A stretch of DNA of 36,960 bases from Patescibacteria group bacterium (GTDB lineage Bacteria; Patescibacteriota; Patescibacteriia; Patescibacteriales; GWC2-42-12). Shown here in pieces: positions 3,694-32,539 of the stretch (positions within the stretch are counted from its first letter, which is position 1; each line of letters begins with the position of its first letter). The notes under the pieces are model-generated. The model ran no database searches. It worked only from the letters and a program-made list of their open reading frames with translations, and had not been told where the DNA came from. The DNA is taken from positions 1-36,960 of the forward strand of contig JAQVNC010000010.1 in NCBI GenBank assembly GCA_028703305.1. Direction: 5' to 3'. Both the position numbers and the translations under genes were made by a program.

Positions 3694-3797
3694 TTGCTTG
3701 CACAAAATTTGTTAAATTTTCGTGCGAGGACTGCTTGAGTCCGCCAGCAGGCGGACGAGTTCCGCAGTAGAAAATTTAATAAATTTTGTGCAAGCAA
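3694..3797. repeat. Foldback element family B, copy 1 (26-28 bp arms around a conserved GC core)
   Basis: Arms GCTTGCACAAAATTTGTTAAATTTTC (3696-3721) and GAAAATTTAATAAATTTTGTGCAAGC (3770-3795); core GTGCGAGGACTGCTTGAG..GAGTTCCGCAGTA shared with 32428-32525. Confidence 0.9.
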
Positions 3798-3893
3798 AAA
3801 TGTCGCGTCTGTCATCTACTATTATAACATAAACCGCATAAAACAAAAACCCGCCTAGCTTGCGCCAAACAGGCTTTAATTTTTGCTTTTTTG

Positions 3894-5839: not shown

Positions 5840-6301
5840 TTAGCGGCTAGTCTCATTGTTTAGCCAGCTATAATCGGCTTTTAACTGATTAATCGCTTGC
5901 AGGCTGGCGCTTTTTTCCCGCTCATCCTCTTGGTTTAAATAATTTTCCATTCTGGTCAAAGCTAAAACAAATTGTATATGCAGCTCTTTAAATTTTAACG
6001 GCACTTTTAAATCAAGGAGATTATTCTTCAATTCAGCGATATTTTGCCCGGTGAAACTGTTGTCCTTAATTAAATTTTCATAAGCGGTGAAAAATTCTTT
6101 GGCCTTGGCCTTATAATTAGACTCCAGCATCGCGGAATTATCCTGTTTTGTTTGCGGCGCGGGGTTATTCGTTTCTTTAACTGATTCTGAAGTAAAAATT
6201 AAATACAAAATTAGGCCGAATAAAATCAATAAAATAAAAATTAAAATTTTTTGTTTTTTTTCCATATATTTTATAAAAAAGTTTTTAAAGCTATAAATCA
6301 T
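5840..6301 (-). CDS. Single-TM hypothetical protein (true start may be the internal ATG of MEKKQKIL)
   Basis: IFILLILFGLILYLIF TM segment; the track start at 6304 is TTG and lies in a repeat arm. Confidence 0.6.
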   Translation of the reverse strand: MIYSFKNFFIKYMEKKQKILIFILLILFGLILYLIFTSESVKETNNPAPQTKQDNSAMLESNYKAKAKEFFTAYENLIKDNSFTGQNIAELKNNLLDLKVPLKFKELHIQFVLALTRMENYLNQEDEREKSASLQAINQLKADYSWLNNETSR

Positions 6302-6408
6302 CAAATTAAAATTTTATGGCCGTAGGGCTTTGCCCGCTATAAAATTTTTATTTGATTCGTTATATTTTTTGAAAGTATTGAAAACTTTTTCTAAAAAAGG
6401 TTTTAAAG
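6300..6408. repeat. Foldback element family A, copy 1
   Basis: Arms 6300-6317 and 6339-6356 flank GGCCGTAGGGCTTTGCCCGCT; followed by a second AAAACTTTTT..GGTTTT hairpin. Confidence 0.88.
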
Positions 6409-6732
6409 CTCAAATTTTTTAGCTTCCATCTCCAGCCAGTCATTCGTGGCTTCATCCCATTTATAGGCTTTTAATTTATGCGATTTTTCATCCGGGCTGT
6501 AAATATAATCAATCACGGTTTCCGAGCCGATACGGTTTGAATATTTGGTTTTTTTATCCAGAATTACCGGCTTAGAAATAAATTCCAGCCTCATTCTGCC
6601 TAAAGGCCCGTTAAAAACCATGTATTCAACATCAGCACCGCCCTCATCTTCAAGATGTTCGCTACCGCTTTCTAGAACTTCAAAGTTATCTTTAATATTA
6701 CCCACTATTTCTTGCCATTTTTCCGGTAGCAT
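6403..6732 (-). CDS. Hypothetical protein ~110 aa
   Basis: ORF MLPEKWQEIVGNIKDNFEVLESGSEHLEDEGGADVEYMVFNGPLGRMRLEF; ATG at 6732 preferred over the TTG at 6747, which lies in a repeat arm. Confidence 0.65.
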   Translation of the reverse strand: MLPEKWQEIVGNIKDNFEVLESGSEHLEDEGGADVEYMVFNGPLGRMRLEFISKPVILDKKTKYSNRIGSETVIDYIYSPDEKSHKLKAYKWDEATNDWLEMEAKKFEL

Positions 6733-6742
6733 ATAGTTATTT

Positions 6743-6850
6743 ATCAAATAAAAATTTTATGGCCGTAGGGCTTTGCCCGCTATAAAATTTTTATTTGATT
6801 CGTTATATTTTTTGAAAGTATTGAAAACTTTTTTTGAAAAAGTTTTCAAA
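6743..6850. repeat. Foldback element family A, copy 2
   Basis: Perfect 18-bp arms ATCAAATAAAAATTTTAT / ATAAAATTTTTATTTGAT around GGCCGTAGGGCTTTGCCCGCT; second hairpin GAAAACTTTTT..AAAAAGTTTTC. Confidence 0.92.
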
Positions 6851-6853
6851 GGT

Positions 6854-7897
6854 TTAATAATAAGAAGCTTGGGTTTCTAAATCTCTTTTGCTGTTATGAG
6901 CCACATCTTTGCTTATCAGGTGATCTGCCAGCAATCTGTCAATCGCTTTATTCATGGTTATCATACCATCTTTCTGGCTGGTCTGAATGACTGAATATAG
7001 CTGACCCATTTGGTTGCGCCTGATTAAATTGGCGATAGCGGGATTATGAATCATGATTTCACGCGCGGCCACCCGTCCGCCGCCAAGCTTGGGCAATAAC
7101 TGCTGGGCGATAACCGCCCGTAAAGTTGACGCCAGCTGATTTAAAATCTGCTGCTGCTGATGTGCCGGGAAAACATCAACGATACGACTGATAGTCTCGG
7201 CCGCGGTTGAAGTATGCAGGGTGGAAATAACCAAGTGGCCGGTTTCGGCCGCGGTTAAAGCCGCTGAAATCGTTTCCACATCTCTCATTTCTCCCAACAT
7301 GATTACATTGGGATCTTGGCGCAAGGCGTATTTTAAAGCCGAGGCAAAGCTCAAGGTATCATGGCCCAATTCCCTCTGTTCAATAATACTTTGCTCTTCT
7401 TTAAATAAATATTCTATTGGATCTTCAATCGTTACAATATTGGCTCGCCTTTCTTTATTGATAATATCAACCATGCAGGCTAAAGTAGTTGACTTGCCTG
7501 ACCCCGATGGGCCGGTCACTAAAATCAATCCGTCTTTTATATGCGTTAATTTGTAAATAACTTCATCAAAACCCAATTCCTTAGGATCGGGGATGGTTTT
7601 AGGCACTAGCCTGGCGGTTAGGCCGATCTTGCCCTCCTGATAATGCAAATTTACCCTAAAGCGGGAACCGAAAAATTCCTGGGAAAAATCCAGCTCGCGC
7701 TTGCGGTTAAACTTTTCCATGGTTTTTTTATCAATTAAAGAGGTTATGGCCTGCTTTAAATCTTCACTTTCAACTATGCCATGGTTTAATTTAACCAACT
7801 CGCCGCCAATGCGCAAAGCCGGAATACTGCCGGCCGCCAAATGCAGATCGGAAGCGTTTTGGTCAATCGCCTGTTTAAAATAAGATGAGATATCCAT
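6854..7897 (-). CDS. pilT: Type IV pilus retraction ATPase PilT
   Basis: ASDLHLAAGSIPALRIGGEL, Walker A GPSGSGKSTT, VTIEDPIEYLF, LRQDPNVIMLGEMRDVETI, HLVISTLHTSTA. Confidence 0.96.
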   Translation of the reverse strand: MDISSYFKQAIDQNASDLHLAAGSIPALRIGGELVKLNHGIVESEDLKQAITSLIDKKTMEKFNRKRELDFSQEFFGSRFRVNLHYQEGKIGLTARLVPKTIPDPKELGFDEVIYKLTHIKDGLILVTGPSGSGKSTTLACMVDIINKERRANIVTIEDPIEYLFKEEQSIIEQRELGHDTLSFASALKYALRQDPNVIMLGEMRDVETISAALTAAETGHLVISTLHTSTAAETISRIVDVFPAHQQQQILNQLASTLRAVIAQQLLPKLGGGRVAAREIMIHNPAIANLIRRNQMGQLYSVIQTSQKDGMITMNKAIDRLLADHLISKDVAHNSKRDLETQASYY

Positions 7898-19584: not shown

Positions 19585-19592
19585 ATTTATAT

Positions 19593-19701
19593 TGTCATTG
19601 CGAGGAGCGTAAGCGACGAAGCAATCTCACGGACATCAATCTTTATGCCAAATTTGCTATTCGTGAGATTGCTTCGCTCACTCCGTTCTCTCGCAATGAC
19701 A
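19593..19701. repeat. TGTCATTGCGAG foldback repeat, copy 1
   Basis: TGTCATTGCGAG/CTCGCAATGACA outer arms and GAAGCAATCTCACG/CGTGAGATTGCTTC inner arms. Confidence 0.92.
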
Positions 19702-19703
19702 GA

Positions 19704-20501
19704 CTATAGACTATATCTAATAAATTTTTCCACTTTTACATCGCCTAATATATCCTCCACTTTTTTGCTGTCATCTTTAATATACTCCTGCTTGACCAAG
19801 CAGACTTCTTCATAAAATTTAGCCAATTTGCCCTGCATGATTTTATCAATCATGTTTTCCGGCTTGCCTTCTTTTAAAAGCTGCTCTTTATAAATTTCTT
19901 TTTCTTTGTTTAATTCGTCAATGGCGACATCTTCGGGCAAAATATATTTTGGGTTAGCGGCCGCGATTTGCATGGCCACGTCGTAAGCAATGTCGCTTTG
20001 GCCTTCCTTGTCTAAAGCCGCTAAAACGCCGATTCTGCCGGCCAGATGCGAATAAGCCGCTACCGTACCGGCCGACTTAAGCATCTCATATCTTTTTATG
20101 TCCAATTTTTCGCCGATAACGCCGCTTAAACCGTCCAAATTTTCTTTAACCGTGCCGTCGCCGATATCTAAAGACAATAATTCAGCCAAATCTTTCGGTT
20201 GCTTTTCCATAATTAACCGCATAACTTTCTCGGTAAAATCCTGAAATTTTTCGCTTCTTACCACAAAATCTGTTTCAGCGTTAATTCCCACGATGTAGCC
20301 GGTTTTAGCGTCTCCGCTTAAAGCGACTTTAACCACGCCTTCGCCAGCTTCGCGATCGCTTCTTTTAGCCGCCTTGGCAATGCCTTTTTTTCTTAAGATT
20401 TCCACGGCCTTATCAATATCGCCGCCGGATTCTTCTAGGGCCACTTTGCAATCAGCGATGCCGGCGCCGGTTTTTTCCCTTAATATTTTTAACTTCTCCA
20501 T
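19704..20501 (-). CDS. tsf: Elongation factor Ts
   Basis: MEKLKILREKTGAGIADCKVALEESGGDIDKAVEILRKKGIAKAAKRSDREAGEG, GINAETDFVVRSEKF. ATG at 20501 preferred; the track start lies in the repeat. Confidence 0.96.
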   Translation of the reverse strand: MEKLKILREKTGAGIADCKVALEESGGDIDKAVEILRKKGIAKAAKRSDREAGEGVVKVALSGDAKTGYIVGINAETDFVVRSEKFQDFTEKVMRLIMEKQPKDLAELLSLDIGDGTVKENLDGLSGVIGEKLDIKRYEMLKSAGTVAAYSHLAGRIGVLAALDKEGQSDIAYDVAMQIAAANPKYILPEDVAIDELNKEKEIYKEQLLKEGKPENMIDKIMQGKLAKFYEEVCLVKQEYIKDDSKKVEDILGDVKVEKFIRYSL

Positions 20502-25785: not shown

Positions 25786-25927
25786 ATCAAGTTAAAATTT
25801 AATGGCCGTAGGGTTCTACCCGCTATTAAATTTTAACTTAATACGTTATATTTTTTGTTTATCCCTTTAGGGGAAAGTATTGAAAACTTTTTTTGTTTAT
25901 CCCCTTGCGGGGAAAAAGTTTTCAAAG
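25786..25927. repeat. Foldback element family A, copy 3 (with two small hairpin insertions)
   Basis: Arms 25786-25803 / 25825-25842 around GGCCGTAGGGTTCTACCCGCT; extra TTTATCCCTTTAGGGG and GTTTATCCCCTTGCGGGG modules. Confidence 0.9.
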
Positions 25928-32094: not shown

Positions 32095-32203
32095 ATTAAG
32101 TTAAAATTTAATGGCGGTAGGGCTTTGCCCGCTATTTAATTTTAACTTGATACATTATATTTTGGAAAATATTAAAAACTTTTTCTAAAAAAGTTTTTAA
32201 AGG
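32095..32203. repeat. Foldback element family A, copy 4 (between T-box terminator and thrS)
   Basis: Arms 32095-32112 / 32134-32151 around GGCGGTAGGGCTTTGCCCGCT; then AAAAACTTTTT..AAAAAGTTTTT. Confidence 0.88.
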
Positions 32204-32204
32204 T

Positions 32205-32386
32205 TTTTAAAAACCCCGTCTCAACGCATTAAAAAATAATGCACTGGGACGGGGTTATTACTTTCCCGCGGTTCCACCCAATTTTCCCGACATAACGTCG
32301 AGACACTCTTTAAATAGGCTTAGTCCCAAATACTAGGGATTCCGGTTAAGGACTATGGCTGGTAACCATAGCAATCGCCTTAGGTA
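32205..32386 (-). promoter_or_regulatory. T-box riboswitch leader controlling thrS
   Basis: Minus strand GGGTGGAACCGCGGG T-box motif (32265-32279); antiterminator GGG[TGGAACC]GCGGG/CCCGTCCC is mutually exclusive with terminator AACCCCGTC..GACGGGGTTTTT. Confidence 0.93.
32212..32256 (-). terminator. T-box attenuator terminator
   Basis: AACCCCGTCCCAGTGCATTATTTTTTAATGCGTTGAGACGGGGTTTTT on the minus strand. Confidence 0.9.
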
Positions 32387-32391
32387 ATATT

Positions 32392-32420
32392 AGTATATTT
32401 TAACCAAGCGAAAATGTCAA
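32392..32420 (-). promoter_or_regulatory. Promoter of the T-box/thrS transcript
   Basis: TTGACA-N17-TATACT on the minus strand. Confidence 0.75.
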
Positions 32421-32427
32421 TTATTTC

Positions 32428-32525
32428 GCTTGCGTTAAATTTGTAAAATTTTCGTGCGAGGACTGTTTGAGGCTGGTAATCCAGCCGAGTTCCGCAGTAG
32501 AAAATTTTATAAATTTAACGCAAGC
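32428..32525. repeat. Foldback element family B, copy 2
   Basis: Arms GCTTGCGTTAAATTTGTAAAATTTTC / GAAAATTTTATAAATTTAACGCAAGC; core GTGCGAGGACTGTTTGAG..CGAGTTCCGCAGTA. Confidence 0.9.
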
Positions 32526-32539
32526 CTAATGTCGTAATC

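Follow-up and report, generated by a model that had tools for sequence, protein, structure and literature searches.

Two foldback elements of roughly 100 bases lie near pgk and thrS in a 36,960-nucleotide stretch of a Patescibacteria genome (this whole stretch is called the window here). They raise the question of what keeps the arms of each copy paired when the arm sequences differ between copies: selection on a folded structure, a by-product of replication, or the movement of a repeat. On the evidence gathered here, both copies are probably non-autonomous, REP-like mobile hairpins that are moved in trans.

Structure and Genomic Context of the Hairpin

Re-extraction from the window returned the coordinates and sequences of both copies as first described. 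In copy 1, the 26-nt left arm GCTTGCACAAAATTTGTTAAATTTTC (3696..3721, + strand) forms 25 Watson–Crick pairs and one G.T pair with the right arm GAAAATTTAATAAATTTTGTGCAAGC (3770..3795, +). The arms of copy 2, GCTTGCGTTAAATTTGTAAAATTTTC (32428..32453, +) and GAAAATTTTATAAATTTAACGCAAGC (32500..32525, +), likewise form 25 Watson–Crick pairs and one G.T, so the pairing counts of the first-pass annotation were correct. The core of copy 1 (3722..3769, +) is an exact match to the genome-wide core and reads, in order, G and TGCG, a bulged A, GGACT, GCTTGA, GTCCGCC-AGCA-GGCGGAC, G, AGTTC, CGCA, and GTA. The core of copy 2 (32454..32499, +) also matches the genome-wide core and carries the apical stem-loop GGCTGG-TAAT-CCAGCC, which bears out the wholesale swap of apical stems described earlier. 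The 3' tail motif ATGTCG stands at 3800..3805 (+) in copy 1 and at 32529..32534 (+) in copy 2, where 5 nt separate it from the adjacent gene's stop codon.

Folding these two cores with all other copies gave a common architecture: arm, G, TGCG/CGCA, bulged A, GGACT/AGTTC, the loop GYYTGA / G, an apical stem-loop, GTA, and right arm. In addition to TGA...GAG, the core thus holds a 9-bp stem, TGCG/CGCA and GGACT/AGTTC with the bulged A between them, which includes an invariant G.U. The 3' tail after the hairpin, NATGTMG, is moderately conserved; at least 5 of 6 positions matched at copy 1's distance in 20 of 42 Patescibacteria (CPR) copies, compared to 16% in shuffles.

Both copies had been placed in intergenic gaps next to promoter regions. 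The copies do lie in gaps but are not promoter elements as such; each occupies the space between two genes of shared direction and runs antisense to them. Copy 1 has a PDZ-domain gene on one side and pgk on the other, while copy 2 begins directly past the stop codon of an unassigned 480-aa gene and comes before the T-box leader of thrS. This leader (32242-32424, − strand) has a clear antiterminator, GGGUGGAACCGCGG, and scored 46.9 bits, under its Rfam gathering score of 93. By a crude ORF caller, 21 of the 24 own copies have neighbour genes that run in the same direction as each other, and these copies are antisense to both neighbours. With GC skew as a proxy for replication direction, the GCGAGGACTG strand fell on the C-rich strand in 17 of 17 testable own copies, and in 33 of 36 Patescibacteria copies when genomes G003, G025, and G012 were included. 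Gene and replication direction are nearly collinear; the two were separable in only three copies, of which two favour replication and one transcription. No replication-strand bias was found on a Nitrospirales chromosome or in Betaproteobacteria, and in the latter the copies are arranged as divergent pairs, 190 to 2300 bp apart.

Copy Number and Distribution across Phyla

The exact core pattern had 21 matches in the own 925-kb genome. A looser pattern recovered 24 copies, two of them short forms with an apical GCGTAGC, and a covariance model added about two, which gives 24–26 copies in total. Among 61 relatives of the same order, the core pattern was found in 12 genomes and the covariance model found the element in 19. 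The reversed control pattern had no match in the own genome or in these relatives, and the core pattern itself had none in 144 other Patescibacteria sampled phylum-wide. Given 21 own matches against none for the reversed control and none in those 144 genomes, the pattern is not a product of chance. The first-pass annotation had proposed a search for further matches in the genome and in related Patescibacteria, and both exist: the two copies belong to a larger family, with element and structure conserved in relatives.

The core GCGAGGACTGYYTGA-stem-GAGTTCCGCAG was found in at least eight phyla (Pseudomonadota, Nitrospirota, Actinomycetota, Bacteroidota, Myxococcota, Desulfobacterota, Gastranaerophilales, and Patescibacteria), with paired arms that differ by lineage, every lineage having its own set. 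A scan of one genome per species returned at least 118 stretches in Beta- and Gammaproteobacteria, Nitrospirota, Coriobacteriia, Bacteroidota, Myxococcota, Desulfobacterota, Gastranaerophilales, and five Patescibacteria lineages, with 1–44 copies per carrier genome and isolates among the carriers. Dechloromonas hankyongensis and Niveibacterium are examples of cultured carriers. Binning error cannot explain this spread, since many carriers hold multiple copies (21 in Barnesiella, 44 in a Myxococcota bin) and they include isolates and a single-contig Nitrospirales chromosome with 13. Plasmids, viral contigs, and E. coli essentially lacked the element in our searches. The core was fixed in the pattern searches, and its invariance there is partly by construction; a model search without a fixed core still recovered variants with a 70–90 nt apical insert in which the module is almost unaltered. 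Such variants occur at loci L080, L082, L085, L087, and L098 of genomes G008, G010, G022, and G043.

Occupancy of Orthologous Sites

Orthologous sites were empty, held a remnant, or held an unrelated foldback family. The copy 1 site is empty in the congeners G002 and G003 and carries only an outer right arm and tail in a third congener, genome G001. We read this remnant as a deletion scar, which is the simpler reading because it resembles the family arm plus tail motif. For the same reason the idea it had hinted at, that the arms are inverted copies of the target, was rejected as the main route. At the copy 2 site, G001 lacks an element upstream of the T-box and carries one between the T-box and thrS. 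When about eleven element sites of G001 were compared with the own contigs, two were shared and others were empty in one of the genomes. The two shared sites kept their structure at about 78% gene identity, and their copies differ by compensated changes in the arms or the apical stem. A different foldback family, TGTCATTGCGAGGAGC...GCAATGACA, is found in one of the two genomes at three sites.

None of the compared sites showed a clean insertion flanked by a target duplication, and transposition is therefore inferred from site occupancy. The patchy spread across phyla together with site turnover within one genus points to a mobile hairpin and not to a resident RNA that regulates pgk and thrS.

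Several other repeats were observed. A second foldback family, TGTCATTGCGAG...CTCGCAATGACA, occupies 19592-19704 of the window where G001 carries the element described here, and begins with TGTC, which is reminiscent of the CGTC REP superfamily. An unrelated palindrome, GAACTGTTGTCGAATAC...GTATTCGACAACAGTTC (L307 3620-3731), is present in G001 and absent from the orthologous own site. A third repeat family in the window has AT-rich inverted arms around GGCCGTAGGGCTTTGCCCGC (6300-6415, 6743-6858, 25786-25901, and 32095-32210), and diverged 225-nt direct repeats (913-2385) lie inside a 773-aa reading frame (160-2481).

Pairing through Sequence Change

Across 21 own copies, 98.1% of cells pair, compared to only 30–54% in slid controls. 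Both sides had changed in 22 of 41 pairs (115 cells), and none of 500 shuffles reached any of the measures. The nine core pairs never vary among the 21 copies. Arms scored a median of 45 with their own partner and 14 when swapped between copies. Intermediates were rare, a wobble being present in 12 cells and a mismatch in about 16, and 72 of 112 double changes were of a transversion type that cannot pass through G.U. Arm wobbles were polar: G.T outnumbered A.C 57:10 in Patescibacteria (about 31:10 minus one conserved position) and 45:25 in other phyla. This indicates that one particular strand is the folded one, and the wobble polarity does speak for selection on one strand. Related copies are non-independent, however, and the p-values are optimistic.

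The first-pass annotation took the covariation to argue for a selected folded structure over simple sequence decay. Strong covariation and folding of one strand are both supported; that covariation by itself argues for selection over another process is not, because most double changes bypass G.U and template-switch correction gives the same outcome.

The main rival to a mobile hairpin is a structured RNA with a host function, either a small RNA or a cis-element, made from the GTGCGAGG strand, whose module resembles a kink-turn-like internal loop with tandem G.A pairs and would be read by a conserved host protein. A module that is invariant across phyla, with an invariant G.U inside, counts in favour of such an RNA; the G.T over A.C bias fits RNA pairing, and in the two orthologous copies shared with G001 compensated changes preserve the structure. 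However, no Rfam family matched the element at gathering score in a search of the window and 12 loci of other taxa, and the well-wobbling strand is antisense to both neighbour genes in 21 of 24 own copies, with no promoter established. The distribution, extremely patchy and with site turnover within a genus, also sits poorly with a host RNA, and we consider this explanation unlikely.

Somewhat less likely still is that the covariation reflects replication template switching (quasipalindrome correction) rather than selection, with the element inert after insertion. Template switching yields double-change jumps in stems and has been documented for RNA stems and in bacteria (PMC8794818). The 72 double changes unreachable via G.U, set against so few wobble and mismatch cells, look like such jumps, and covariation alone cannot separate selection from correction because template switching also keeps palindromes perfect (PMC8794818). 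Correction has no strand preference among residual mismatches, yet the wobbles are polar with or without the conserved position, and it leaves the invariant unpaired bases of the module unexplained.

Candidate Mobility Enzymes and Related Repeat Systems

Neither an adjacent transposase nor a universally co-occurring mobility enzyme was found. Tyrosine recombinases were present in 13 of 13 carriers but also in 14 of 14 control genomes and are uninformative, and a reverse transcriptase as shared mover was absent from 6 of 13 carriers. The PF01797 profile, run on the 61 relatives and 14 cross-phylum carriers, detected no gene adjoining the element; a PF01797 match near the element in L295 was a false lead, since the match was weak, fell on a different long ORF, and had no copies flanking it.

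The reading of the element as a classical REP with its own RAYT (TnpA-REP) as mover is already weakened, and we judge it improbable. Y1_Tnp does occur in 17 of 19 element-bearing relatives versus 24 of the 42 relatives without the element (Fisher p about 0.02, with no correction for kinship), and the orientation bias and short foot-side motif are like those of HUH substrates (PMC6006769, PMC8266576). Nevertheless, genome G012 has 27 family-model matches and no Y1 gene, and Y1_Tnp was missing from 7 of the 14 other-phylum carriers, several of them rich in copies, and never stood beside the element. The own genome encodes a RAYT-like Y1 transposase of 212 aa (L102 1-700, G000:C15) whose own repeats, AGCGGTCGGACCGCT, lie both within the reading frame and around it; in the 8 kb read around this gene we found that different hairpin and no copy of the element. 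Like GTAG REPs, the element has a structured hairpin in which an irregular stretch of stem is required, and a short conserved motif stands next to the foot. The element differs in having much longer arms of free sequence, in lacking a linked RAYT (no RAYT gene was flanked and no Y1 gene bracketed by it), and in showing no conserved GTAG or other motif at the 5' foot, with the NATGTMG tail at the 3' side instead.

With regard to IS200/IS605-like substrates, the polarity of the wobbles favours folding as a single strand, which may be either RNA or DNA. Orientation relative to replication was strongly biased in Patescibacteria (33 of 36 copies), where it is confounded with gene direction, and showed no bias in Nitrospirota or Betaproteobacteria.

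The CGTC-tagged REP superfamily, which includes RPE-4, RPE-6, and dRS3 and whose mover is an open question, resembles the element in being small, palindromic, intergenic, present in several phyla, often dimeric, and without a known dedicated transposase (PMC3733652); the divergent pairs of Betaproteobacteria are comparable to its dimers (PMC3733652). These REPs have an 8–9 bp stem and a CGTC or TGTC tag (PMC3733652), whereas the element has lineage-specific arms of ~26 bp around an internal invariant module, and no CGTC tag occurs at either end. Occurrence in multiple phyla, dimers, and the lack of a dedicated transposase thus amount to similar behaviour, not membership.

Terminal inverted repeats of TIRYTs (TIRtrons, PMC3733652) are also long and self-complementary, and the betaproteobacterial pairs bracket other genes, but no tyrosine transposase was found between the examined divergent pairs or near the element. 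The pairs at L183 1450-2980, L143 3050-4355, and L273 7901-9967 bracket accessory genes of unassigned function, and the L183 pair has about 250 bp of additional inverted flanks. Such pairs are possibly a cassette-like mobile unit. One pair brackets what we take to be an ordinary folate gene, and a cargo-carrying transposon is for this reason only a possible reading. Bacterial MITEs (NEMIS, ERIC, RUP) are, like the element, non-coding foldback units of about 100 nt between genes. Their ends are the fixed terminal repeats of a DDE element, whereas here the terminal arms are free in sequence and the centre is fixed, and no target duplication was definable at the compared sites.

An intrinsic terminator family, which strong hairpins in intergenic gaps adjoining stop codons might suggest, was rejected as highly improbable, as a T-tract directly 3' of the hairpin (at least 5 T in 8 nt) was found in only 6 (top strand) and 7 (bottom) of 75 copies and a terminator needs no internal module.

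Interpretation

The best reading of the family is a new superfamily of REP-like hairpins. The element is REP-like in behaviour without the defining GTAG or CGTC tag; its novelty is judged from open-access full text (figures and supplements excluded), where the exact core strings led to no relevant paper, and an earlier description under another name is possible. The mobile-hairpin reading is based on copy number, presence and absence at orthologous sites, cross-phylum spread, pairing through change, wobble polarity, and the C-rich-strand orientation in Patescibacteria. Counted against it are that no enzyme was identified among the carriers searched and that Nitrospirota and Betaproteobacteria have no strand bias. 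The two sites shared with G001, which keep their structure, could mean host-level selection and also count against it.

A mobile unit would consist of the ~26 bp locus-specific paired arm, an invariant recognition module (GCG, bulged A, GGACTGYYTGA ... GAGTTC, CGCAG), an exchangeable apical stem-loop, and the short 3' tail. A candidate trans-acting enzyme may recognise the module on the folded strand, either as single-stranded DNA exposed at the fork or as its RNA, and the same enzyme would insert copies into short intergenic gaps. The stems would need only to pair, so their sequence could drift, aided by template-switch correction, while the recognised module could not change. A bolder and doubtful extension is that the family forms a third, pan-bacterial hairpin superfamily, with an internal module that is recognised not by a dedicated transposase but by a factor which hosts themselves carry and all bacteria possess; this would account for its spread between phyla and for copying at replication forks without an enzyme of its own.

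Small palindromic repeats shape the intergenic DNA of many bacteria, and the way in which families without a transposase move is an open question, as stated for CGTC REPs in PMC3733652. The present family also cautions that repeated hairpins can covary perfectly because of mobility plus template switching and not because of a functional RNA. A near-invariant module in at least eight phyla, combined with fully free stems, provides a clean substrate definition for finding the mobility factor.
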